A stretch of 50,539 bases of DNA from positions 1 to 50,539 of IMG/VR virus record IMGVR_UViG_3300037258_000268, one strand, 5' to 3'. This DNA comes from a virus. Below the pieces are notes generated by a model. It was not told the DNA's origin. It worked only from the letters and a program-made list of their open reading frames with translations, and made no database searches. Positions 3,140-21,652 of the stretch are shown here, piece by piece; positions within the stretch are counted from its first letter, which is position 1; each line of letters begins with the position of its first letter. The position numbers were made by a program, and so were the translations under genes.

Positions 3140-4647
3140 GCTGCTGCCTCCGATGCAGCGGGAAGGTAGTGGTCAACCCAGGCGAGCCCGCTCCGGTCCA
3201 GCACGTACATCCCGCGGGTGACCGCCACGTAGGCAAGCCGCGCCATCTCCGGGGGAATCCTGGGCAGCTGGTCCCTCGGGGCTTCGGGGTCACGCTTCGG
3301 CTCACGGAAGTCGTCAGCGATCTGGACCATCCGCCACTCGCGGCCCTTCGCCGAGTGCGCCGTCGAGATCGTGATGTCTGCCTCGGCGCCCTTCTCCTCG
3401 CTGCCGATCTGCGACAGGATCTCGAACAGGCCGTCGACCCCGTGCTCGTCGACCAGGCCGACGAACTGCTTCAGGTCCTCCCCGTCCGGGTCGTTGTCGA
3501 CGAAGTCCTGCAGCTGCCCCCAGCTGGTGAACGCCATCAGGTCCGGGTGGTCGCACGGCCGGCCGAGCTTCAGGTCCTTAGCAGCCTTGGTGAGGCTGAC
3601 CAGCTCGCCGGTGCCCTTCGGGAACGCGACCTTCAGGCCCTTCTCGATCGCGGCGATCGCCCGCTTGAGCGCCTCGCCGTTCGTGCGGCACAGCACCGCG
3701 TCAGGATGATCAGGGGCGACACCGATCCGGGACCGGATCTGCTCATAGCCGCGCAGCGGCAGGGGCGCACCCAGGAGGGCCAGCCACTTGTTGCCCTCAG
3801 CCGCGATGGAGGGACCGAACCGGAACGACTGGGTGAGCGACAAGACGGTGACGCCGGGCTCTGCAGCGAATCCCTTCATGGCGTCGACCGCGCCACGCCA
3901 CTCATAGATCGCCTGGTAGGTGTCGCCGACCATGATGACCTGCGTGCCGTAGGCGATCTGCTCGCGGACCATCGCCGCAACACAGGGGTTGGAGTCCTGC
4001 GCCTCGTCGAGGGCGATCACGTCGCCGGGCAGCTGCGGATGGGTAAGCGCGAACGCCTTCAGGTAGTAGTCGTGCTCCATCGGGATGAGCCCGGTGTCCC
4101 TGGTGATGTCCTGCTCCCAGATCCGCCGTGCGATCGGCGGCACGACCTGCTGCAGCGCCTCAAGCTCGTCGGGATCGGTGAACCGCTTCAGGTCCCAGGG
4201 CACATGCGACTTGGTGATGGTCTCGTCGGCGGAGTAGCAGAACTTCCTGATCGTCGCCTTGACGACAGAGGCCAGCTGGCCGGGCGACAGTACCCGCTTG
4301 TCGGTTAGCCGCTGCGGCCCGGTGATCTTCATCAGCTTCGCGAGCTGCGGGCCCGGCATGTACCTGCCGCCGCCGACCCGCTTCGCCATGCTGAGCATCG
4401 GCTGGAACGCGAGCCCGTGGCTCGTGTAGCAGCGGGTGTTGAGCGGGAACGCGGCCCGCGCGTCCAGCTGCGCCGCCTTGTTGTAGGCGAGGTACAGGAA
4501 CCGCTTGTCCGGTGACGCCTGCGCGAGCATCTTCAGGATCGTTGTTTTGCCCGACCCGGCGTAGGCGTTGACCACCAGGTTCTCGCCACGCCGGTAAGCC
4601 TCGATGATCGCGGCCTGCTCGGCTGTCGGAGTCCGCTCCGCGCTCAT
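3136..4647 (-). CDS. UvrD/Rep-family superfamily 1 DNA helicase
   Basis: A 503-residue protein with SF1A helicase motifs in order: Walker A AGSGKTT (about residue 30), motif II LDEAQD, motif III VGDTYQAIYEWRGA, motif IV region SLTQSFRFG, motif V STAHSAKGREW and motif VI AYVAVTRG. ATP-driven 3'-5' DNA unwinding is expected. It is shorter than cellular UvrD (about 700 aa), as is usual for phage versions. ATGA overlaps on both sides couple it to the exonuclease and to the gene upstream. Confidence 0.9.
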   Translation of the reverse strand: MSAERTPTAEQAAIIEAYRRGENLVVNAYAGSGKTTILKMLAQASPDKRFLYLAYNKAAQLDARAAFPLNTRCYTSHGLAFQPMLSMAKRVGGGRYMPGPQLAKLMKITGPQRLTDKRVLSPGQLASVVKATIRKFCYSADETITKSHVPWDLKRFTDPDELEALQQVVPPIARRIWEQDITRDTGLIPMEHDYYLKAFALTHPQLPGDVIALDEAQDSNPCVAAMVREQIAYGTQVIMVGDTYQAIYEWRGAVDAMKGFAAEPGVTVLSLTQSFRFGPSIAAEGNKWLALLGAPLPLRGYEQIRSRIGVAPDHPDAVLCRTNGEALKRAIAAIEKGLKVAFPKGTGELVSLTKAAKDLKLGRPCDHPDLMAFTSWGQLQDFVDNDPDGEDLKQFVGLVDEHGVDGLFEILSQIGSEEKGAEADITISTAHSAKGREWRMVQIADDFREPKRDPEAPRDQLPRIPPEMARLAYVAVTRGMYVLDRSGLAWVDHYLPAASEAAA

Positions 4648-5279
4648 GGTTCGACCACCCCAGTGATCGCGGCGAAGGCCTCGGCCGCGCGCTCCTCAAG
4701 CGTCGCCACGATCTCTCCGTGCTCGGTGACGGTGCCGTCCTTGAGCGCCGCGAGGACGGCCGCGGTGCCCTTCTTGCCAGGGGCATAGGAGAACTTGCCG
4801 GTGGGGTCGTGCCGGGACACCTCGGCGACCTTGACCGTCTCCCCGGTGGCGGTATTGGCCAGCCGGCCGTCGGTCTCCTCGCACGTCTCGGCGAGCGCCG
4901 CCCTGTACGCCGGGTTGATCCGCTGCTGAACCAGCTCGGGGAACTTCCCGCGGATCAGGTCGAGCACCCGCTTGTCGGTGAGCACCGAGGCCGGAAGGTA
5001 GTCCTCGACCTCATCAGGCGCGGACTCGTCGACCAGGGCGCGAAGCTTGCCCTCATCGAAGTGCACGTCGACCGCGCCGCGCTCGATCGACAGCGTGCCT
5101 GCCTCGATGCCGCCCGGCAGCACCGGCGTGACGGACTTGTTTCCCGCGAGCCGGTGGACGGCGTACGCCTTCTCTGCCGCCACGCGGGCGGCGCCGAGCT
5201 CGGCGGTGAGCTCGTCGTGCCGCACCCGGAGCACCGCCACCTTGACGGTGCACGCGGCTACCTGGCCTGCGTGGCTCAT
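4644..5279 (-). CDS. Hypothetical protein between ATPase and helicase genes
   Basis: A 211-residue soluble protein. The N-terminal 40 residues are alpha-helical with heptad-like spacing and may form a coiled coil; the rest is mixed and acidic. No catalytic motif is evident. Its position between the Sak4-like ATPase and the UvrD-like helicase, with 4-nt overlaps to both, implies a role in recombination or replication, such as an accessory or ssDNA-binding factor. That is inference from context only. Confidence 0.75.
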   Translation of the reverse strand: MSHAGQVAACTVKVAVLRVRHDELTAELGAARVAAEKAYAVHRLAGNKSVTPVLPGGIEAGTLSIERGAVDVHFDEGKLRALVDESAPDEVEDYLPASVLTDKRVLDLIRGKFPELVQQRINPAYRAALAETCEETDGRLANTATGETVKVAEVSRHDPTGKFSYAPGKKGTAAVLAALKDGTVTEHGEIVATLEERAAEAFAAITGVVEP

Positions 5280-7518: not shown

Positions 7519-8022
7519 TTAAGGGGCAAGTCCCTCCAGCGGGACCTCGCCGCGGAGCTCGCTGATGACGTCGGCCGTCGTGGCATCGCCGGACAGCTTC
7601 GGGCGGACGCGCTCGTAGGCGGCCTCGAAGTTCTTCCAGTCCGCCTCGGCGCTCTCGATGGAGCCCTCGGTGCGGCTGCGGATCATCGCGTAGGCGTTGT
7701 CCCAGTCATGGGCGGTCATCGTCATGACGGGCTTGGAGACGCCCGGCTGAACGAACAGGCGCGGCTTCAGGTCCGGGAACAGCTCGCCCTGGAGCGAGGA
7801 GACTGCGGCCGGCGCGGCCGGGTGCTGGTGCTCCCGGTGCCAGGCGTCGAGCGCGCGGCCGGCGTAGTCCGCGTAGATGGCGAGGATCAGCGGGTCGTCG
7901 GCCTTCGCGGCGATCTCGTCGCGGACAGCGGTAACGACCTCCTGGCGGGTGAGCGTGCCGCCGAGCCGCTGAGAGCCTTGGTGGTCGACGATGTCCTTGA
8001 GCCATGCGGGCAGCTGGTTCAC
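7519..8022 (-). CDS. Hypothetical early protein
   Basis: A 167-residue soluble protein coupled by an ATGA overlap to the HTH gene upstream. It is mostly helical by composition, with Trp/His-rich stretches (AWHREHQH, AHDWDNAY). No catalytic motif is recognised. As the third gene from the early promoter it is likely made early, possibly as a regulator partner or replication accessory; this rests on position only. Confidence 0.7.
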   Translation of the reverse strand: MNQLPAWLKDIVDHQGSQRLGGTLTRQEVVTAVRDEIAAKADDPLILAIYADYAGRALDAWHREHQHPAAPAAVSSLQGELFPDLKPRLFVQPGVSKPVMTMTAHDWDNAYAMIRSRTEGSIESAEADWKNFEAAYERVRPKLSGDATTADVISELRGEVPLEGLAP

Positions 8023-8303
8023 GCGAGTCTCCGGAGGGGGATGACGGCGGCGTCCTCGCTGTCACATTCCGCTGTCACGTTTCCGCCCCTCGGGGGCGTC
8101 TTTGTGACAGGCAGATGTGACACCGAGGCATCGGGGGCGTTGAGCTCGTCCCACCGCGCAAGATCGCGGCGGACGGTCTCGTAGGAGACTTCTTGCTCGG
8201 CCGCGATCTGCCGGAGGGACTTGCCCTCGCCGCGCAGGCGCGCGGCCCGCCTCATCCGGGCATCGCGGGGAGACTTCGGCTTGACCGGCTTGTAGGTCCT
8301 CAT
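8019..8303 (-). CDS. Small HTH DNA-binding protein
   Basis: A 94-residue protein with a clear helix-turn-helix at about residues 28-52 (GKSLRQIAAEQEVSYETVRRD), in the style of resolvase/sigma-type HTH domains, preceded by a basic arm. It overlaps its neighbours by 4 nt on both sides. It lies second in the operon after the Cro-like gene, so a transcriptional or origin-binding role is likely. Confidence 0.75.
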   Translation of the reverse strand: MRTYKPVKPKSPRDARMRRAARLRGEGKSLRQIAAEQEVSYETVRRDLARWDELNAPDASVSHLPVTKTPPRGGNVTAECDSEDAAVIPLRRLA

Positions 8304-8614
8304 GACGCTTTCCCGAGGACTCGGGGAGTGCGTCCGGCAGCGAGCCTGTCGAGCAGCTCGTCGGGCATGAGGTCTTCCGGCTCCTTGCCGAGGGCCTTAG
8401 CCAGGAGCCGGACGTTGGGCATGCTGGTGCCCTGCCTGCCCCGCTCCCAGGCGGAGACGAGGGACTGGGTGACCTTGCCCCCGGCCTTGGCGGCGACCTC
8501 TTCCTGGGTGAGGTCGACATCAAGCCGCCACCTGAGGAGCTTGTCGCCGTCGAGGTACCGGACGCGCTGCCGCCGCCTGTGCGGGGCGGTTGTGTCCGGT
8601 GAGGTCGATGTCAT
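8300..8614 (-). CDS. Cro-like XRE-family regulator
   Basis: A 104-residue protein whose XRE-type HTH spans about residues 28-80 (LTQEEVAAKAG, then QSLVSAWERG, then LLAKALGKEPEDLM). It is the first gene of the leftward early operon and is divergent from another XRE regulator at 8787, the usual Cro/CI arrangement of temperate phages. The -10 at 8623-8628 puts the start of transcription within about 2 nt of the ATG, so its mRNA is probably leaderless. Confidence 0.8.
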   Translation of the reverse strand: MTSTSPDTTAPHRRRQRVRYLDGDKLLRWRLDVDLTQEEVAAKAGGKVTQSLVSAWERGRQGTSMPNVRLLAKALGKEPEDLMPDELLDRLAAGRTPRVLGKAS

Positions 8615-8622
8615 GGGAACGG

Positions 8623-8651
8623 AGACTAGCGGTTAGTGCACGATAGTGCAA
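8623..8651 (-). promoter_or_regulatory. Leftward early promoter
   Basis: On the minus strand, TTGCAC (8651-8646) and TAGTCT (8628-8623) are separated by exactly 17 nt. This fits a vegetative actinobacterial promoter, with predicted start near 8616. Both operator repeats (8634-8650) overlap the -35 and spacer, so binding there should block transcription. Confidence 0.6.
8634..8650. promoter_or_regulatory. TAGTGCA tandem operator
   Basis: TAGTGCA occurs at 8634-8640 and 8644-8650, spaced exactly 10 bp start to start, so two sites face the same side of the helix. They sit within the leftward promoter. A third copy is at 9357-9363 inside another promoter. Likely binding sites of one of the two XRE proteins. 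Confidence 0.55.
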
Positions 8652-8786
8652 CATAAATCCCGCTACTTTCGGGCACATTCATACAGCCGCTCAGCTATCA
8701 GTGGCCTCGCAGGGTCGAACGTGCTTGGGTTACACTGCGGAAAGTACAGTTAAGTGGATTTAGGGAGCCCGGGAAGGGAGCGGCGA

Positions 8787-9845: not shown

Positions 9846-10715
9846 TCAGGGGACGAGGGCGACCGCCGAGATCGCCCGGGCGACCGGCTGCTGGCGGCCG
9901 AACTCCGCAGACGCCCAGTCAAGCTCACGGCCGCGGACGTCGGTTACCCCGGGGGGAGCCAGATCGAGGCCGGCCGCCTTGACCCACGCTGCCACCTCGT
10001 CGGAGTCGTGAAGGCAGACCGTGCCGCCGGCGCCGCCGAGGGCCTCCATGTACTCGACCGAGCCGGGGCCCCCGCCGGGGACACCGAGTGTGAGGGCAAG
10101 CGTCGACCCGGGCGAATGCTTCCGGAGCAGCCGCGCGTACTCGGCGACGGCCCATGCGGCGAAGTCCGACGGCCACCAGTGGGCGCACAGTTGCAGCTGC
10201 ACCATCACCGGGCCGCGGGCCAGGATGGCCTGCGCCTGCGGGGCGCCGAGCAGCTTGGCCGGGTCGCTGGCCTGCGCCTCGTAAGCGGATACGTGCCCAT
10301 GGTCGGGATCCGCCAGGAGCGCCTCGCTGAACGCGACAGCGTCGGGATCCGCATCGACGTAGGCGTACAGGGCATCCGGGCGCGCTGCCTGCGCGGCTGC
10401 GTGGAAGCCCCGGTAGACCGTGCGCCCGGAGGGGTCGGTGCCGCCGGGCGGCGGGTAGCCGGAGCCGGCGAAGATCACCCCGGCTGCCTCAGGCACGCGG
10501 AACTCAGGGGCCCCGCCGGTGACAGCCCAGTGGGCGGCACGAGGGTAGAACTCGTTCGCGTCCCTGGTGAGGTCCGCGGCCCACGGCCAGCGCTGCAGGA
10601 TCGACGCGGCGAACTGCCGGTCCGCCTCAAGGGCCAGGTGGCCGCCTGCGAGAACATCCCGGATCCGTGCGATGCTCCCGGCGTCAAGCACGGGCGCGGG
10701 AGGCTGGGCAGCCAC
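9846..10715 (-). CDS. SAM-dependent methyltransferase, Methyltransf_19 (DUF574) family
   Basis: A 289-residue protein starting at GTG 10715 with a GAGAGGAAAG ribosome site. Family hallmarks are visible: the N-terminal SIARIRDVLAGGHLALEADR, the ANEFYPRA segment, an acidic YAYVDADPDAV loop expected to bind the SAM ribose, and a late LGVPGGGPG. These enzymes are abundant in Streptomyces and relatives, with substrates mostly unknown. It is convergent with the gene at 9507 and looks host-derived, not viral. Confidence 0.85.
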   Translation of the reverse strand: MAAQPPAPVLDAGSIARIRDVLAGGHLALEADRQFAASILQRWPWAADLTRDANEFYPRAAHWAVTGGAPEFRVPEAAGVIFAGSGYPPPGGTDPSGRTVYRGFHAAAQAARPDALYAYVDADPDAVAFSEALLADPDHGHVSAYEAQASDPAKLLGAPQAQAILARGPVMVQLQLCAHWWPSDFAAWAVAEYARLLRKHSPGSTLALTLGVPGGGPGSVEYMEALGGAGGTVCLHDSDEVAAWVKAAGLDLAPPGVTDVRGRELDWASAEFGRQQPVARAISAVALVP

Positions 10716-13156: not shown

Positions 13157-13831
13157 ATGCCGCGCCCCTATGTCCTGCTGTCCGTCGCCCAGTCCATCGA
13201 CGGCTACATCGACGACACGACACCCGAGCGGCTGGTCTTGTCCAGCCCCGAAGACCTCGACCGGGTTGACGAGGTCCGCGCCGGCGTCGACGCGATCCTC
13301 GTCGGCGCCACCACGCTCCGCCGCGACAACCCGACCCTCCGCGTCAAGTCACCCGCGCGGGTCGCTGCCCGCGAGGCGCACGGAGAACCGCCGCAGCTTC
13401 TCCGCGTCATCGTCTCCCGCTCCGGGAGCCTTCCCCGCAGCCTGCGCCTGTGGGGATCTCCCGGCCCGAAGATCGTGTACGTGCATGAGCCTGCCGCCGC
13501 CGACGCCGGGAAGGCCCTCGACGGCCTCGCGGACGTCGTGCCGGTTGATCCCGGCGCCGGCTTCGGCCCGGTGCTCGACGATCTCGGCGAGCGCGGGATA
13601 CGCCGGGTCATGGTGGAAGGCGGCCAGCAGGTTCACACCCAGTTCCTTCAGCAGGACCTGGCCGACGAACTTCACGTTACGATCGGCGGGTTCTTCGTCG
13701 CGGACCCGGGCGCACCGCGGTTCACTGCGCCGGGCGTGCGCCTGCCGCAGGACAGCGGCAGGCGGATGCGTCTCGTCGGCGTCTCACAAGCCGGGGAAAC
13801 GGCAGTCCTGCGGTACCTGGTGGCGCGGTAG
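13157..13831 (+). CDS. RibD C-terminal/dihydrofolate-reductase-fold reductase
   Basis: A 224-residue protein with the RibD C-terminal fold: PYVLLSVAQSIDGYI at the N-terminus, DAILVGATTLRRDNP, then GIRRVMVEGGQQVHTQFL. It lacks the deaminase half of full RibD. NADPH-dependent reduction of a pyrimidine or related carbonyl substrate is expected, but stand-alone homologues have diverse roles. A GGAAGG ribosome site precedes the ATG. It follows the XRE-TPR gene by 28 nt and may be its target. Confidence 0.8.
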   Translation: MPRPYVLLSVAQSIDGYIDDTTPERLVLSSPEDLDRVDEVRAGVDAILVGATTLRRDNPTLRVKSPARVAAREAHGEPPQLLRVIVSRSGSLPRSLRLWGSPGPKIVYVHEPAAADAGKALDGLADVVPVDPGAGFGPVLDDLGERGIRRVMVEGGQQVHTQFLQQDLADELHVTIGGFFVADPGAPRFTAPGVRLPQDSGRRMRLVGVSQAGETAVLRYLVAR

Positions 13832-15554: not shown

Positions 15555-15850
15555 TAGCTGTCGCACACGGGGCAGAGGATGTCCATCCGCGCCCAGGCGT
15601 CCTGTCCCTTGAGGCGGGCGTACACGGAGCCGCACAGGCAACGCTGAAGCACGGCAAGTTCCTCGGCCGGCAGTGACAGTTTCCACCGAAGCTCGGCAGC
15701 CGCCCGGTCCTGCAGCTCCAGCTGGCCCGCGCGACCGTCTGCCGCGGTTGCGATCGTTCCTGTCGGCGTGTGCGTGAGGCGCACCACGCGGCGTGCACCG
15801 GTGAAGACTTCCACCCGGACATCGGGATCATCAAGCAGGGGATCGCTCAT
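15554..15850 (-). CDS. Hypothetical protein with C-terminal zinc-type cysteines
   Basis: A 98-residue protein starting at ATG 15850 (ATGA overlap with the GntR gene). The N-terminal half is beta-like; the C-terminal part has CLCGSVYARL, then DILCPVC, giving two CxC/CxxC pairs about 20 residues apart, as in zinc ribbons. Co-transcribed with the GntR regulator. Confidence 0.6.
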   Translation of the reverse strand: MSDPLLDDPDVRVEVFTGARRVVRLTHTPTGTIATAADGRAGQLELQDRAAAELRWKLSLPAEELAVLQRCLCGSVYARLKGQDAWARMDILCPVCDS

Positions 15851-16431
15851 GCCGGCCTCGCCGTCACCGAGGCACCAGCAAGATCCCAGCCGTCCCATGA
15901 CCATGCATCCGTCTTCGCCGACCAGACGAGGCCTTCGGCGATGTCCCCGGCCCGGGCCGGGCTGACGGCGATCACGTCGAGGCTGACTATCGCAGCCGAG
16001 GGCGACGTCGCGGCAACGGCTGTCCGCACCGCGTCGTCCTGAACTGCCGCGGCCGCGACCGCCGCGTCGAGCTCGGCTGCCTCGCCGTCGCGCCAGGGGA
16101 CGTCCTCGGGGCGCGCGATGACCGCGTCCACCCTGAACAGCCGCCGGGGCCGGAGGAACGACCCACGCCCCTGCTCGAGCGTCACCCATCCCTCAGCTGC
16201 CAGCATGCGGAGCACCACGCTCGCGTTCTCCAGCGAGATCTTGTGGTTCCGGTTCAGCTCGGCCCGGCTGGGCGCCCTGCCCTTGTCGTCGTAGCGGCCG
16301 GCAATGATCTCGGCACGCACGATGGCGGCGACCGCGGCGGCCGTAACCGCGTCCTTCGGTGTCATGAGGGCTTCGGCGAGCTGGGGATCACCCGCTACAT
16401 GGTAGAGATCGCGGTCCGTATCCGATAGCAC
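15847..16431 (-). CDS. GntR-family transcriptional repressor of the transfer-like operon
   Basis: A 194-residue protein starting at GTG 16431 with an AGGGGG ribosome site. The winged HTH is at about residues 30-95 (AAIVRAEIIAGRYDD, then PSRAELNRNHKIS, then SVVLRMLAAEGWVTLEQGRGSF). The C-terminal 95 residues do not resemble a known ligand domain. It diverges from the translocase operon across a promoter and perfect palindrome. In pSAM2-type elements a GntR protein (KorSA) represses transfer genes; a similar role is inferred. Confidence 0.75.
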   Translation of the reverse strand: MLSDTDRDLYHVAGDPQLAEALMTPKDAVTAAAVAAIVRAEIIAGRYDDKGRAPSRAELNRNHKISLENASVVLRMLAAEGWVTLEQGRGSFLRPRRLFRVDAVIARPEDVPWRDGEAAELDAAVAAAAVQDDAVRTAVAATSPSAAIVSLDVIAVSPARAGDIAEGLVWSAKTDAWSWDGWDLAGASVTARPA

Positions 16432-16510: not shown

Positions 16511-17035
16511 ATGAACCGCGCAGACCGCAAAGCCTGGCGCTCAGCCGGCACTCTCACCGACCTCGGCGAGCTCGTGGTCAGGTGGCTGAACGGGGAGATC
16601 CAGCAGACTCCCTGCCACATGGGGCCACCGGAGCGCGAGACGATCCCGCTTATCCCGGCGCTGACAGTCATCAACCGGGGCGGCCTCATCACCGCCTGCT
16701 CCCAGCGCGCAGAAACCCTCAACGGGGACACGTGGAACACGTGGGTCGACGGCTTCGCCACCGACGCCGTGCTAGAGCGCCTGCAGGAGGCTGTCGCCGG
16801 GACGCCGCTGGTCCTGGCTGCCTGCAGCCGCCGCGTCCACGAGCACGACCGTGCGCGCATCTGGGCGCGCTGCCTGTGGCGTGAGGAGACCGGCTTCTGG
16901 GCTGAGAGGTGCCCGGCTGTCGCGGCCGCGCTACAGGGCTGCTGGTTCGTTTCTGTGGAAGACCCCGAGCCGGGGCGCAATGACCTGCTCTGGGGCACCC
17001 TCACCCGCGCGCTCGTCACCGGACACGCAGCATGA
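16511..17035 (+). CDS. DUF6919-like protein
   Basis: A 174-residue protein starting at ATG 16511 behind AAGGGG. The opening (RADRKAWRSAGTLTDLGELVVRWLNGEI) and the internal NRGGLITACSQ match what I recall of the Streptomyces DUF6919 family, often found beside transfer or plasmid genes. Function is unknown. It is the first gene of the operon controlled by the palindrome and overlaps the next gene by 4 nt. Confidence 0.6.
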   Translation: MNRADRKAWRSAGTLTDLGELVVRWLNGEIQQTPCHMGPPERETIPLIPALTVINRGGLITACSQRAETLNGDTWNTWVDGFATDAVLERLQEAVAGTPLVLAACSRRVHEHDRARIWARCLWREETGFWAERCPAVAAALQGCWFVSVEDPEPGRNDLLWGTLTRALVTGHAA

Positions 17036-17367
17036 TCCCCCGCCCTGTAGTCATCGCCGCCAAAGTCCTGACAGTTCTCGTGGTGGTGCTTGCCCTGGCA
17101 GTCAGCCTCCAGGTGCTCGCGGCCATCATGATCGGCGCAGGCGCGCTCGCGCTCGCGGCCTACCGGTTCGGCATCGTCCCCGTCATCGCCGCCCTCGCCG
17201 GCACTGCCGCCGTCATGCTCGCCGTAATGCTCGGCCCCCACGCCTTCCTGGCGCTCGCGTTCAGCATGGCGGTGCTCACAATCGGCGCCCTCGCGTACGG
17301 CATCGCCCGCGTTGCCGCTGCGGGCGGCGTCAGCCCCGGCATCATGTGCTGGGAGGCGGCGTCATGA
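17032..17367 (+). CDS. Small multi-pass membrane protein (Spd-like by context)
   Basis: A 111-residue protein that is almost entirely hydrophobic, with three or four predicted membrane helices (VLTVLVVVLALAVSLQVLA, IVPVIAALAGTAAVMLAVML, AFLALAFSMAVLTIGALAYG). It overlaps both neighbours by 4 nt. Streptomyces conjugative elements encode small membrane Spd proteins that spread DNA between mycelial compartments. Position next to the translocase suggests this role, without a family-level match. Confidence 0.65.
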   Translation: MIPRPVVIAAKVLTVLVVVLALAVSLQVLAAIMIGAGALALAAYRFGIVPVIAALAGTAAVMLAVMLGPHAFLALAFSMAVLTIGALAYGIARVAAAGGVSPGIMCWEAAS

Positions 17368-19520
17368 CGCACCCCGACGACGACGACGGCAACGTAGTCC
17401 ATCTGCCTACCGTGCCTCCGTCCGAGTGGGGCGGCGCGATGCGGGACCGCTTCGAGCATGTCCTTGACGACGAAGACGACGCCGCCGACGCGCTCGACAA
17501 CCCGCAGCCGGTCCACCCGCCAGGCGGCTACCAGCTGCCTCGCATCAGAGCGGAGCGGGCACCTGTCCTCCCCTCCTGGCTACGCGACCCCGAAGCACTC
17601 AAGGTCGAGCTAGCCGACCGCTGGGACCAGTTCCTGTACGAGTTCCAGTTCCACGGCATCCGCTCACCCTGGTACCTCGCCAAGACCGGCGGTTACGCCC
17701 TGTGGGGCCTGGCCGTCGCCGCTGACCGGCTACGCCGCTGGTGGTGGCTGTCAGAGGCGACCGGGGCCCGCCTGCTGGCCGCCCTCGAACACGACGGCCG
17801 CGAGTACCGCACCCAGCACCTGCACCAGCGCAAGGTCCGCGCCGAGCGCGGGGCGATCATCGGCGTCACCGCCGTCTTCACCCTGCTCCCCCTGCTGGTC
17901 ATCACGCTGCTCGTCCCGTGGCTCTGGCTCGGCATCGCCCCGCTCGCCACCGCGCTGCTCGCCCGCGCCGGCCGCCCCGCCGGCAAGCGGATCATCACCG
18001 CGTCCATGGCCCAGCACGCCACCCGCGTCATCAGCGAGGACACCCTTGTCCGCGCCTACGCCGTCGGCAGCCTGTGCAAGCCCGGCACCGAAGGCCAGGG
18101 GCTCGGGCTCGGCGTCATGGCACGCGAGCGCAACGGCACCACCGTCGATGTCATGCTCCCGCACGGCAAGACCTTCGCCGACGTGCTCACCGCGCTGCCG
18201 AAGATCGCGTCAGGCCTCGACGTCAAGGAATCCCAGATCGTCCTGACCGAGAGCGAGGTGTCCGGGCGCCGTCACCGCATCTGGATCGCCGACGAGGACC
18301 CGCTCGGCATCCCCGCGGGCCGCTCCCCGCTGCTCGACCTCAAGCGGCGCAACGTGTGGCGTGACCTGTTCCCGATGGGCCTCGACCAGTTCGGCCGGGT
18401 AGTCGCCTACAGCCTCCTCTGGGTGTCGTTCCTGATCGGCGCGCAGCCGCGCAAGGGCAAGACGTTCACTGCCCGCCACCTCGCCCTGTTCTGCGCCCTC
18501 GACCCCCACGTCCGCATCACGATCGCGGACGGCAAGGCGTCCCCTGACTGGCGCGCGTTCCGCTACGTCGCCCACCAGGCGATATTCGGTACCCGCCCGA
18601 CCCGCGAAGGCGACCCCCGTCAGCGGCTGCTCGAGGCGCTGACAGGCGTCGTCAAGCACATCGAGGACGTCAACGAGTTCCTTTCCACCCTCACGACCAC
18701 CGAGTGCCCGTACGGCAAGGTCACCGAGGAACTGTGCCGCAAGTACCCCAAGCGCGTGTTCATGTGGCTGGTCGTCATGGAGGAGTTCCAGGAGTACGTC
18801 GAAGGCGACGACCAGGACCTCAACAAGAAGATCGCCGGGCTGCTGGCAACCATCCGCGCCCTGGGGCCGTCCGTCGGCGTCATCCTGATCAGCAGCACGC
18901 AGAAGCCTGCCGGCATCGGCAGCGGCGACGTGCTCCGCCTCATGGCCCGCTACCGCGACAACCACGACGTCAGGATCGCCCTCAAGTGCGGCAGCAAGAC
19001 CGTGTCCGAGGCGGTGCTCGGCGGTGACTCCCTGGCCGAAGGCGACGACGCCACCAAGCTCCCGAGAGGCAAGCGGTTCAAGGGCATCTGCATCTTCCGC
19101 GACCATCCCGACTTCGAGACCAGCCTGACTGTCCGCGGGTACCTCGCAGACGGTGAGGACGCCGAGGTCATCGTCCTGGCCGGCCGCCGCTACCGCGAGC
19201 AGGCCGGCACCCTCAGCGGCGAGGCAGCCGGCGAGGACCTGACCGTCCCGGCGCGCGACGTGCTCGCCGACGTGCTCGACATGTTCCGCGACGGCGAGGC
19301 CGGCCTGCACTGGAGAGTGCTCGCCAAGCGGCTGGACGACGAGGTTCCCGAGCGGTGGGCTGACGTCACCCACGGCGCGATCTCAGCTCAGTGCCGCGCT
19401 CTCGAGGTCCCCTCGGTCCCCGTCAAGATGGCCGGGGAGTCCGACCGCGGGTGCCGCCGCGCCGACATCCTGGCCGCCATGGGGAGGGAACGTGCCGCCG
19501 TCTTACCCCCCATCCGGTAA
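17364..19520 (+). CDS. FtsK/SpoIIIE-type DNA translocase (TraB-like)
   Basis: A 718-residue protein with an N-terminal acidic region, two membrane helices near residues 170-210 (IGVTAVFTLLPLLVITLLVPW), Walker A GAQPRKGKT at about residue 360, Walker B VFMWLVVMEEF, and a C-terminal domain (about 630-710) resembling the winged-helix recognition domain of FtsK/TraB. TraB proteins of Streptomyces plasmids form hexamers that pump double-stranded DNA into recipient hyphae after reading short repeats. Finding it in a phage element is the key anomaly of this window. Confidence 0.85.
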   Translation: MTHPDDDDGNVVHLPTVPPSEWGGAMRDRFEHVLDDEDDAADALDNPQPVHPPGGYQLPRIRAERAPVLPSWLRDPEALKVELADRWDQFLYEFQFHGIRSPWYLAKTGGYALWGLAVAADRLRRWWWLSEATGARLLAALEHDGREYRTQHLHQRKVRAERGAIIGVTAVFTLLPLLVITLLVPWLWLGIAPLATALLARAGRPAGKRIITASMAQHATRVISEDTLVRAYAVGSLCKPGTEGQGLGLGVMARERNGTTVDVMLPHGKTFADVLTALPKIASGLDVKESQIVLTESEVSGRRHRIWIADEDPLGIPAGRSPLLDLKRRNVWRDLFPMGLDQFGRVVAYSLLWVSFLIGAQPRKGKTFTARHLALFCALDPHVRITIADGKASPDWRAFRYVAHQAIFGTRPTREGDPRQRLLEALTGVVKHIEDVNEFLSTLTTTECPYGKVTEELCRKYPKRVFMWLVVMEEFQEYVEGDDQDLNKKIAGLLATIRALGPSVGVILISSTQKPAGIGSGDVLRLMARYRDNHDVRIALKCGSKTVSEAVLGGDSLAEGDDATKLPRGKRFKGICIFRDHPDFETSLTVRGYLADGEDAEVIVLAGRRYREQAGTLSGEAAGEDLTVPARDVLADVLDMFRDGEAGLHWRVLAKRLDDEVPERWADVTHGAISAQCRALEVPSVPVKMAGESDRGCRRADILAAMGRERAAVLPPIR

Positions 19521-19658: not shown

Positions 19659-20120
19659 GTGAAGCTCCAGCTGACCTTGTTCACCTGCGGAGGATGCGAT
19701 AAGCCCCGCGGCCTCCATCACCTGTGCCGCGGCACCAGGAAAGGCCGCGACAAGCCCCGCCTGACCGTCCGCTACGAGTGCAAGAAGTGCGGCCGCAGCG
19801 TCCGCAACCCGTTCCGCCACACCTGCTCGATCCGCACCGACTGGGCGCGCAGGCGCAAGGCAGCCGCCCGCCGGGCGAAAGCAGCTGCCCGCCGCGAGCT
19901 CCGGAAGAAGCGCGCCCGCGAAGCCGCCGCCCGCCGCAAGGCGGTCGCCGCCGAGCGCCGCGCCAAGGCCAGGGACGCCAAGCGCACCAGGCCGCGCGCC
20001 GAACGCCACAACCCGCGCAACTGCCGTGACCCCGAGTGCACCCGCTACCCCTGCCACCTCTACGACGACGGATTCACCGACGGGCTCACAGCAGCCGCGC
20101 AAGGGAGAGAAACCCGATGA
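19659..20120 (+). CDS. Highly basic zinc-finger protein
   Basis: A 153-residue protein. GTG 19659 is preferred because GGGGG lies just upstream; ATG 19647 in frame adds four residues. The N-terminal part has CGGCDKPRGLHHLC and CKKC, then RHTC, giving two zinc sites. A long Arg/Ala/Lys helix of about 60 residues follows, then RDPECTRYPC. It may bind nucleic acid and is likely co-transcribed with the translocase despite the repeat-filled gap. Confidence 0.65.
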   Translation: MKLQLTLFTCGGCDKPRGLHHLCRGTRKGRDKPRLTVRYECKKCGRSVRNPFRHTCSIRTDWARRRKAAARRAKAAARRELRKKRAREAAARRKAVAAERRAKARDAKRTRPRAERHNPRNCRDPECTRYPCHLYDDGFTDGLTAAAQGRETR

Positions 20121-20371
20121 TCCATACCCTCTACCAGCTCGGTGTCGCGTTCATGTTCCTTCTGGCCATCGCCGCCTACCGGCTCGGCAGGGCATGGATC
20201 GACCCGTTCCGCACCTGCCGCCGCTGCGAAGGGAACGGCGTCAGCGGCAGCGGGAAGACCTGCCGCCGCTGCAAGGGCCGCGGTGAAGTTCGCAGGCTCG
20301 AAGCCCGGTGGACGCTCCGCGCCCACTTGGCCCTGGTCCGCGCGATCGAGGAAAGAAGGCAGTTCCGATGA
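20117..20371 (+). CDS. Membrane protein with DnaJ-type zinc motif
   Basis: An 84-residue protein starting in an ATGA overlap. One N-terminal membrane helix (YQLGVAFMFLLAIAAYRLG) is followed by CRRCEGNG...CRRCKGRG, the CxxCxGxG pair of the DnaJ zinc domain, and a helical basic end. Such small membrane zinc proteins recur in Streptomyces mobile elements. Function unknown. Confidence 0.7.
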   Translation: MIHTLYQLGVAFMFLLAIAAYRLGRAWIDPFRTCRRCEGNGVSGSGKTCRRCKGRGEVRRLEARWTLRAHLALVRAIEERRQFR

Positions 20372-20683: not shown

Positions 20684-21652
20684 ATGACCATCACCGCCCC
20701 GCTGACACACGCCAACGGTGCGACGCATCCGCAGCCGCCGCCGTCTGTTCCCCTCTTGCCGCGCGGCCCGGCGTGCCCGTGGCCCTCCGGCGACGTGACG
20801 CCGGACACGGGCACGCTCACCGCTGTCGCGGCATCGGCCGTGTCGCGCTTCTTGTCGCGGCTGCGCGTTCCGGACGGCGACACGGTGATCACCTGGGCGA
20901 TGGCAGCCGCCGTCGCGCTTGTCGCGGTCGACGCGGCGATCGTGTCGTACTCGCACATCTACGGCCTCGCGACAGGCCATTGGGGGAGCGGCGCTGAGAC
21001 AGGGATCCAGGCGCGGCTGCTGCCGCTCAGCATTGACGGGGTGATCTTCGAAGCGTCGCTGGTGAAGCTGTACGGGGCGCGACACAAGACGGTGCGCGGT
21101 CCGCGTCGCAGGTTCCGCATGCCGGGTCTGGCGACGTTCATGTTGTGGCTCGGCATCGTGGCCACTGTCGCGGCGAACGTCACCCATGGCCTGCCGTCGT
21201 CGCTGCTGTCGCCTGTCGCGCACATGGTCATCATGGCGCTGTTGTCGGCGTGGCCGGCGGGGGCGCTGATCGGCTCGGTGGAGATGGCGATGGGCCTGGT
21301 GCGCGACAAGCACGCTGTCGCCTCGGCCCGCGGGGGTGACGCCGGCGACGAGGACAGCGACAAGACCGCTGCCGACGAAGAGGACGCGCGCCGCGCCGCC
21401 CGCAGCGTCGCAGCACCGCCGGCATCGCGCAAGCCGCGACGTGCCGCCGTTAAGCCCGGGCCGCGATCCGCGACGCCACCTGGCACCTCCGATCCTGTTG
21501 TCGCCGCGATCAGGGACCACGACGCGTGGAAGGCAGGACGCAGGCTCACGCGCGACGACAAAGACGAGATCGCGAAGACGGCCGGAGTGTCGCGCCGTAG
21601 TGTCGAGCGCTGCCTCGCCGACGCGCGGCGCATGGGGCCGCAGAATCCTTAG
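20684..21652 (+). CDS. DUF2637 membrane protein with C-terminal HTH
   Basis: A 322-residue protein with four membrane helices at about residues 65-205 (WAMAAAVALVAVDAAIV, LLPLSIDGVIFEAS, FMLWLGIVATVAANV, VIMALLSAWPAGALIGSVEMA), the DUF2637 layout. The C-terminus carries an HTH (TRDDKDEIAKTAGVSRRSVERCL). DUF2637 genes are typical companions of FtsK/TraB genes in actinomycete integrative elements and are thought to be Spd-like. The gene is unusually dense in TGTCGC/GCGACA sites, often made with T-ending codons that are otherwise rare here. Confidence 0.8.
   Translation: MTITAPLTHANGATHPQPPPSVPLLPRGPACPWPSGDVTPDTGTLTAVAASAVSRFLSRLRVPDGDTVITWAMAAAVALVAVDAAIVSYSHIYGLATGHWGSGAETGIQARLLPLSIDGVIFEASLVKLYGARHKTVRGPRRRFRMPGLATFMLWLGIVATVAANVTHGLPSSLLSPVAHMVIMALLSAWPAGALIGSVEMAMGLVRDKHAVASARGGDAGDEDSDKTAADEEDARRAARSVAAPPASRKPRRAAVKPGPRSATPPGTSDPVVAAIRDHDAWKAGRRLTRDDKDEIAKTAGVSRRSVERCLADARRMGPQNP
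20824..21603. repeat. Fifteen TGTCGC/GCGACA hexamers within one gene
   Basis: TGTCGC starts at 20824, 20841, 20853, 20920, 21166, 21207, 21214, 21316, 21499 and 21598. GCGACA starts at 20877, 20969, 21079, 21303 and 21357. From base composition, about one would be expected in 780 bp. Several sites use codons such as GCT, CTT, ACT, CCT and GTT before GTC-GC, rare choices in this GC-rich window, which suggests selection on the DNA and not the protein. Confidence 0.6.

Follow-up and report, generated by a model that had tools for sequence, protein, structure and literature searches.

The locus considered here raises the question why a short DNA word should be packed many times into the coding sequence of a membrane protein, and which protein would read it. 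The window, that is the whole stretch of DNA that was analysed, is a 50,539-base virus record and comes from an actinobacterial phage with genes for the small and large terminase, the portal and the capsid, and its TerL is kin to those of Streptomyces phages. Upstream of the terminases lies a module that resembles Streptomyces transfer regions. Its genes code for a GntR regulator, a DUF6919 protein and an FtsK/SpoIIIE-like translocase, with small genes and a DUF2637 gene besides (Table 1). The translocase was matched to phrog_1358 with a longer reading of its gene (16851-19520), the end of which is followed by the DUF2637 start after about 1.2 kb; an FtsK search of viral contigs found no relative. 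Between FtsK and DUF2637, the gene at 20117-20371 encodes a small protein that contains a CXXCXGXG zinc motif of the DnaJ type and seems to have a hydrophobic segment at its N terminus. The phage also bears a gene for a RibD C-terminal-domain (reductase-type) protein (13157-13831) and one for an S-adenosyl methyltransferase (9846-10691).

Table 1. Features of the transfer-like module and of the repeated word in the window.
Feature	Position	Strand	Basis
GntR-type regulator, head of module	15847..16431	-	PF00392
FtsK/SpoIIIE-like DNA translocase, proposed motor partner	17364..19520	+	phrog_1358, E 2.1e-18
DUF2637 gene, 322 aa, membrane protein with predicted C-terminal helix-turn-helix, host of the array	20684..21652	+	PF10935
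Codons of four membrane-type helices, residues 65-217	20876..21334	+	AlphaFold2 and hydropathy
Codons of C-terminal helical domain, residues 271-316, proposed DNA reader	21494..21631	+	AlphaFold2
TGTCGC/GCGACA array, 15 sites	20824..21593	both strands	counts and shuffle tests
Motif site 1	20824..20829	+	
Motif site 2	20841..20846	+	
Motif site 3	20853..20858	+	
Motif site 4	20877..20882	-	
Motif site 5	20920..20925	+	
Motif site 6	20969..20974	-	
Motif site 7	21079..21084	-	
Motif site 8	21166..21171	+	
Motif site 9	21207..21212	+	
Motif site 10	21214..21219	+	
Motif site 11	21303..21308	-	
Motif site 12	21316..21321	+	
Motif site 13	21357..21362	-	
Motif site 14	21499..21504	+	
Motif site 15	21588..21593	+	

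The TGTCGC/GCGACA array and its controls

The DUF2637 gene holds exactly 15 sites, ten reading TGTCGC and five GCGACA, in agreement with the fifteen copies in about 780 bp noticed in a preliminary description of this DNA. The remainder of the 50.5-kb window holds 48 sites, about one per kb, and no 780-bp bin outside the gene contains more than three. The same description had set the array against roughly one copy predicted from base composition; the excess is real, but its fold was somewhat overstated, because codon-aware controls expect 2.1-3.2 copies, which makes it an excess of about 5-7-fold and not 15-fold. Synonymous shuffles that keep both the protein and the codon counts (20,000 replicates) gave a mean of 3.2 sites (sd 1.46) and at most 10, and resampling from the window-wide codon usage gave a mean of 2.1 and at most 7 in 5,000, so that the codon-shuffled controls did not come to similar counts. 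Correcting for all hexamers leaves a p of about 2e-5 for the whole gene, and among the window genes longer than about 350 bp no other hexamer comes near z = 8, the next best reaching 5.2.

The sites occupy all three frames and both strands, in 5/6 frame/strand classes, and therefore no single peptide or peptide repeat explains the array. Site spacings range from 7 to 142 bp, with no obvious helical period by eye. The further claim that T-ending codons are used where they create the motif finds weak support, with T as third base in 14% of the motif codons versus 8% elsewhere in the gene and, for alanine, GCT at 2/10 in the motif versus 2/44 Ala codons.

It could be argued that the hexamers have no function and arise from codon bias, peptide repeats or recent tandem duplication, as repetitive stretches resembling coiled coils occur in some of the plasmid DUF2637 proteins and dense TGTCGC is found in unrelated viral contigs too. 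The persistence of the excess in synonymous shuffles and the use of several frames and both strands largely refute this, and we consider it very improbable. Among the listed matches of viral contigs with three closely spaced TGTCGC, the densest are mostly of lower G+C, and these loci look like repetitive or chance cases. The array of the window is a real feature at the level of the DNA and not a coding artefact, a statement that we make with high confidence. The suggestion of a DNA code inside a coding sequence is supported, as the excess outlasts the codon shuffles and recurs in distant DUF2637 genes, either with this word or with another one specific to the element. Of the roles that had been considered for it, a restriction or methylation context fails to explain why the array is restricted to one gene, and a replication iteron found no support and is judged unlikely.

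Repeated words in other DUF2637 genes

Two further phage-like records, G009 and G030, were found among TerL-related virus records and by a DUF2637 search, respectively, and neither was picked by the motif. Their DUF2637 genes (L048 and L049) contain 14 and 23 TGTCGC versus about 4-5 expected, and in each record the DUF2637 region is the sole strong hot spot of this word. The two proteins are distant relatives of the window protein, and the motif lies mostly at non-homologous positions; between the two, 4 of 13 aligned sites are homologous with the motif retained. Their sites fall largely into the codons of the disordered linker and the C-terminal domain (mostly linker codons in the AlphaFold2 model of L049), whereas the sites of the window lie also in the membrane part. 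Directly 3' of the G030 gene, a ribbon-helix-helix (CopG-type) gene (L049, 8728-9177) holds three TGTCGC.

The closest homologue of the window protein (L002, 61% identity in the core) shows a weak excess, with four TGTCGC versus 1.5 expected. A homologue without motif excess had been named as evidence against a DNA code, and L002 partly is such a case. Its C-terminal helix-turn-helix also differs from that of the window, and its gene has a weaker related word, CCTGTCG (4 versus 0.3 expected), plus another word, GCGCACCC. No match was obtained by tblastn of the window DUF2637 protein against phage and plasmid records, and neither this protein nor L002 picked up a relative in a first scan of genome contigs. 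A DUF2637-like gene of another phage record (G007; L030, 1237-2121) is enriched in a different word, CGGGAG (10 versus 2.8, p 1e-3).

A survey of 112 DUF2637 genes and 584 neighbour genes of 700-2500 bp from plasmids, phages and genomes, with a per-gene hexamer test at p<0.001, found a significant hexamer in 15/112 DUF2637 genes versus 4/584 neighbours (odds ratio 22, Fisher p 1.2e-9), figures to be read with the caveats that the window was picked for its motif and that neighbours in one record are not fully independent. On plasmids the proportions are 12/21 and 3/94, on genome contigs 1/86 and 1/463. One of the positive neighbours adjoins an array-bearing DUF2637 gene, that of p12A09 (L034), and another is the ParA-partner gene of plasmid 891-h. 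The p12A09 neighbour (7650-8684), which lies beside a TGGCCA-bearing DUF2637 gene, holds five TGTCCA versus 0.3 expected and seven TGGCCA, and the array may therefore spill over into neighbours.

The word differs from element to element, with GTGAGCGC, TGCCGAAACGG, CGGGGACCA, TGCCGAGA, CGAGACG, TGGCCA, CTGAAG and CGAAGCG as examples and CCGAAACGG, its front overlapped by TGCCGA, as a further one. The word is TGTCGC in the window, GTGTCGC in L049, GTGAGCGC on NBC_01213 (L285) and CCGAAACG on NBC_00271 (L289), and in most elements the words lie on both strands and in several frames. These sequence comparisons suggest that DUF2637 genes of mobile elements often carry their own element-specific repeated DNA words. 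In the S. coelicolor plasmid SCP2 (AL645771), the gene SCP2.27c (L302, 2088-3689), encoding a DUF2637-like "multidomain membrane protein", contains GCCGAAGC nine times versus two expected.

Candidate readers of the array

The window protein matches PF10935 over residues 71-183 with 29.3 bits, the cut-off being 22.8. In the AlphaFold2 models, DUF2637 has four predicted membrane helices, then a disordered linker and, at the C terminus, a compact helix-turn-helix-like domain. The pLDDT of the membrane-type helices is about 52-76 per ten-residue block in the window protein, and that of the C-terminal domain is about 78-91 in the window protein and 84-92 in L049. Homeodomain-like matches of the C-terminal domain are weak in both Foldseek and Pfam, and Foldseek with the whole window model gave nothing at E<=0.001.

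We favour, with a probability of about one half, a self-recognition in which the membrane-anchored helix-turn-helix of DUF2637 reads the array of its own gene and tethers the DNA of the element beside a motor; both the reader and the role are what we infer from the comparisons given below. The array would then act in cis as a cluster of binding sites for a protein, embedded in the DUF2637 coding sequence, and its reader would be the C-terminal helix-turn-helix of the four-helix membrane protein. Many DUF2637 copies on the array would hold the DNA of the phage or plasmid at the membrane, and the tether would adjoin the DNA motor of the same element, which would be FtsK/TraB-like in the window and ParA on some plasmids. 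Loading, transfer, spreading or stable inheritance could be the purpose.

Most relevant in this respect are plasmids that share some of these genes and not others. NBC_00887, NBC_01213 and ITFR-21 (L035, L285 and L293) have GTGAGCGC and DUF2637 (56-73% identity) in common and almost no other nearby gene. NBC_00887 and NBC_00271 have a TraB-named gene that is 87% identical, whereas their DUF2637 proteins are only about 30% identical and the motifs differ. The reverse is found for NBC_01281 (L286) and NBC_00271, which have the same motif and DUF2637 proteins of 80% identity, with 29% identity in the ATPase and 32% in FtsK. As these recombinants share the word with DUF2637 and not with the neighbours, DUF2637 itself is the simplest reader.

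The comparison of the putative reading domains points in the same direction. With motif classes and helix-turn-helix cores assigned by eye, the helix-turn-helix score has a median of 89.5 in same-motif pairs and of 13 (maximum 41) in different-motif pairs. Some pairs, such as L293 and L288 with 51% identity in the membrane part, differ in both helix-turn-helix and motif. Six further plasmid genes were picked by helix-turn-helix similarity, and the CCGAAAC family was found in 5/6 (z 3.9-6.9), the sixth, SCP2.27c, having the variant GCCGAAGC. The p12A09 gene and L045 have one homologous site in ten, with the motif retained. The window and L145 (TGAGCG) are weakly assigned exceptions: the latter fits its group poorly, and the helix-turn-helix core of the window shares only 4-6 of about 20-23 residues with L048 and L049 despite the common TGTCGC. 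The covariation of motif and protein is also partly phylogenetic, because the array lies inside the DUF2637 gene and is co-inherited with it. Further points against self-reading are the single array among 86 genome-contig DUF2637 genes at p<0.001, the small TGTCGC excess of L002, and the TGTCGC clusters of 891-h, which lie outside its DUF2637 gene.

The preliminary description had also proposed recognition by a translocase, which stays a live rival. The array would then be a loading site of the FtsK/TraB-like translocase, read by the C-terminal winged helix of that protein by analogy with clt/TRS and TraB. An FtsK-like gene lies a short way upstream of DUF2637 in 3/3 TGTCGC phage-like records (window, G009 and G030), and the clt sites described so far likewise consist of short repeats in several copies that differ between plasmids. 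However, across plasmids the motif tracks DUF2637 and does not covary with the translocase-like neighbour: it is the same beside the dissimilar ATPase and FtsK of NBC_01281 and NBC_00271 and different beside the similar TraB-named genes of NBC_00887 and NBC_00271. BLAST found no match of the window translocase to those of L048 and L049, and the complete array plasmids p12A09 and Kitasatospora NBC_01302 unnamed3 gave no match to the FtsK_SpoIIIE profile, which also misses the FtsK-like protein of the window. The element common to the records is DUF2637 together with its array, while the motors differ, and we think that loading of the translocase is unlikely to be the explanation, though it is the strongest of the alternatives.

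Another rival is a partition centromere whose reader would be a separate protein, either ParB-like or of the ribbon-helix-helix type. In its favour, the linear plasmid 891-h of Streptomyces sp. 891-h (L038, NZ_CP050694.1) has 28 TGTCGC in a gene beside parA and 10 in an FtsK gene (4334-4666 and 3192-3439), with spacings of 6-8 bp in places, whereas its DUF2637 gene holds only one copy; this cluster is possibly a centromere with the same word. ParA is also encoded close to DUF2637 on several array plasmids, a ribbon-helix-helix gene follows DUF2637 in L049, parS1 of SCP1 is located within parB1, and arrays of repeats are used by ribbon-helix-helix systems (PMC13245405). Against a centromere, neither the window nor G009 has a ribbon-helix-helix match, and the scanned part of the window genes yielded no ParA. 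We regard this explanation as improbable, and less likely than that of the translocase. A ribbon-helix-helix protein as shared reader was rejected, the gene being present in only 1/3 TGTCGC phage-like records.

Another suggestion had been a packaging signal, here a phage pac site close to the terminase genes, and in the window the small terminase gene does follow about 1.2 kb downstream of the array. In G009, however, it is about 8 kb away from the terminase genes, and as plasmid DUF2637 genes carry the same kind of array, we give this possibility hardly any weight.

Known systems and what self-recognition would mean

The clt of Streptomyces conjugative plasmids, where TraB reads 8-bp repeats, partly overlaps the tra gene in pWTY27 (PMC3583192). 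With its 15 sites beside an FtsK-like gene, the window likewise has a short, multi-copy, element-specific motif; the arrays differ from clt/TRS in having 10-20 sites over hundreds of bases, on both strands and inside a DUF2637 coding sequence, and in that the motif tracks DUF2637 and not the translocase-like neighbours. SpdB2 of pSVH1 and SLP2, a spread protein integral to the membrane, binds dsDNA and is an interaction partner of TraB, and spdB2 affects the stability of SLP2 (PMC4170104). The window protein, with its predicted membrane helices and predicted C-terminal helix-turn-helix and its gene beside FtsK, may be of this type; the DNA binding of SpdB2 was reported to be non-specific. SpdA2, with a role in plasmid stability, binds the sps palindrome inside its own gene, spdA/spdA2 (PMC4170104). 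This is similar in that a plasmid DNA-binding protein has target repeats in its own coding sequence, but the palindrome sps is 12 bp long, conserved and found two to three times, whereas the DUF2637 words are element-specific and present in 10-20 copies. We know of no link between SpdA2 and DUF2637. The parS/parC sites resemble the arrays in being short, clustered and close to ParA or ParB genes (parS1 of SCP1 being inside parB1), and they differ from the window in the points raised above for a centromere. All of these, clt, SpdA2, SpdB2 and parS1, are precedents and not tests.

DUF2637 was matched in 93/247 genomes sampled from the class, and similarity to one member places it on 265 plasmid records. 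In a full-text literature search, mostly of papers outside subscription journals, one paper mentions it, and the titles and abstracts retrieved hold no evident report of the motif. We tentatively propose, with somewhat less confidence than for self-recognition as such, that one DUF2637 gene provides both a membrane-bound sequence-specific DNA binder and its own dispersed sites, making up an element-specific membrane anchor in which word and helix-turn-helix diversify together and the motors, FtsK/TraB or ParA, are exchangeable. SCP2 with SCP2.27c would be a good laboratory model for this.

The array illustrates that a dense non-coding code can sit in a coding sequence and be visible only to codon-aware statistics. 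If DUF2637 genes indeed carry their own element-specific binding arrays, this family of unknown function would gain a testable role, and computation may be able to locate the cis-acting site in many plasmids of Streptomyces and in related phages. Protein and DNA word would then be a coevolving pair, and its natural variants could be used to decode how the specificity of a helix-turn-helix changes.
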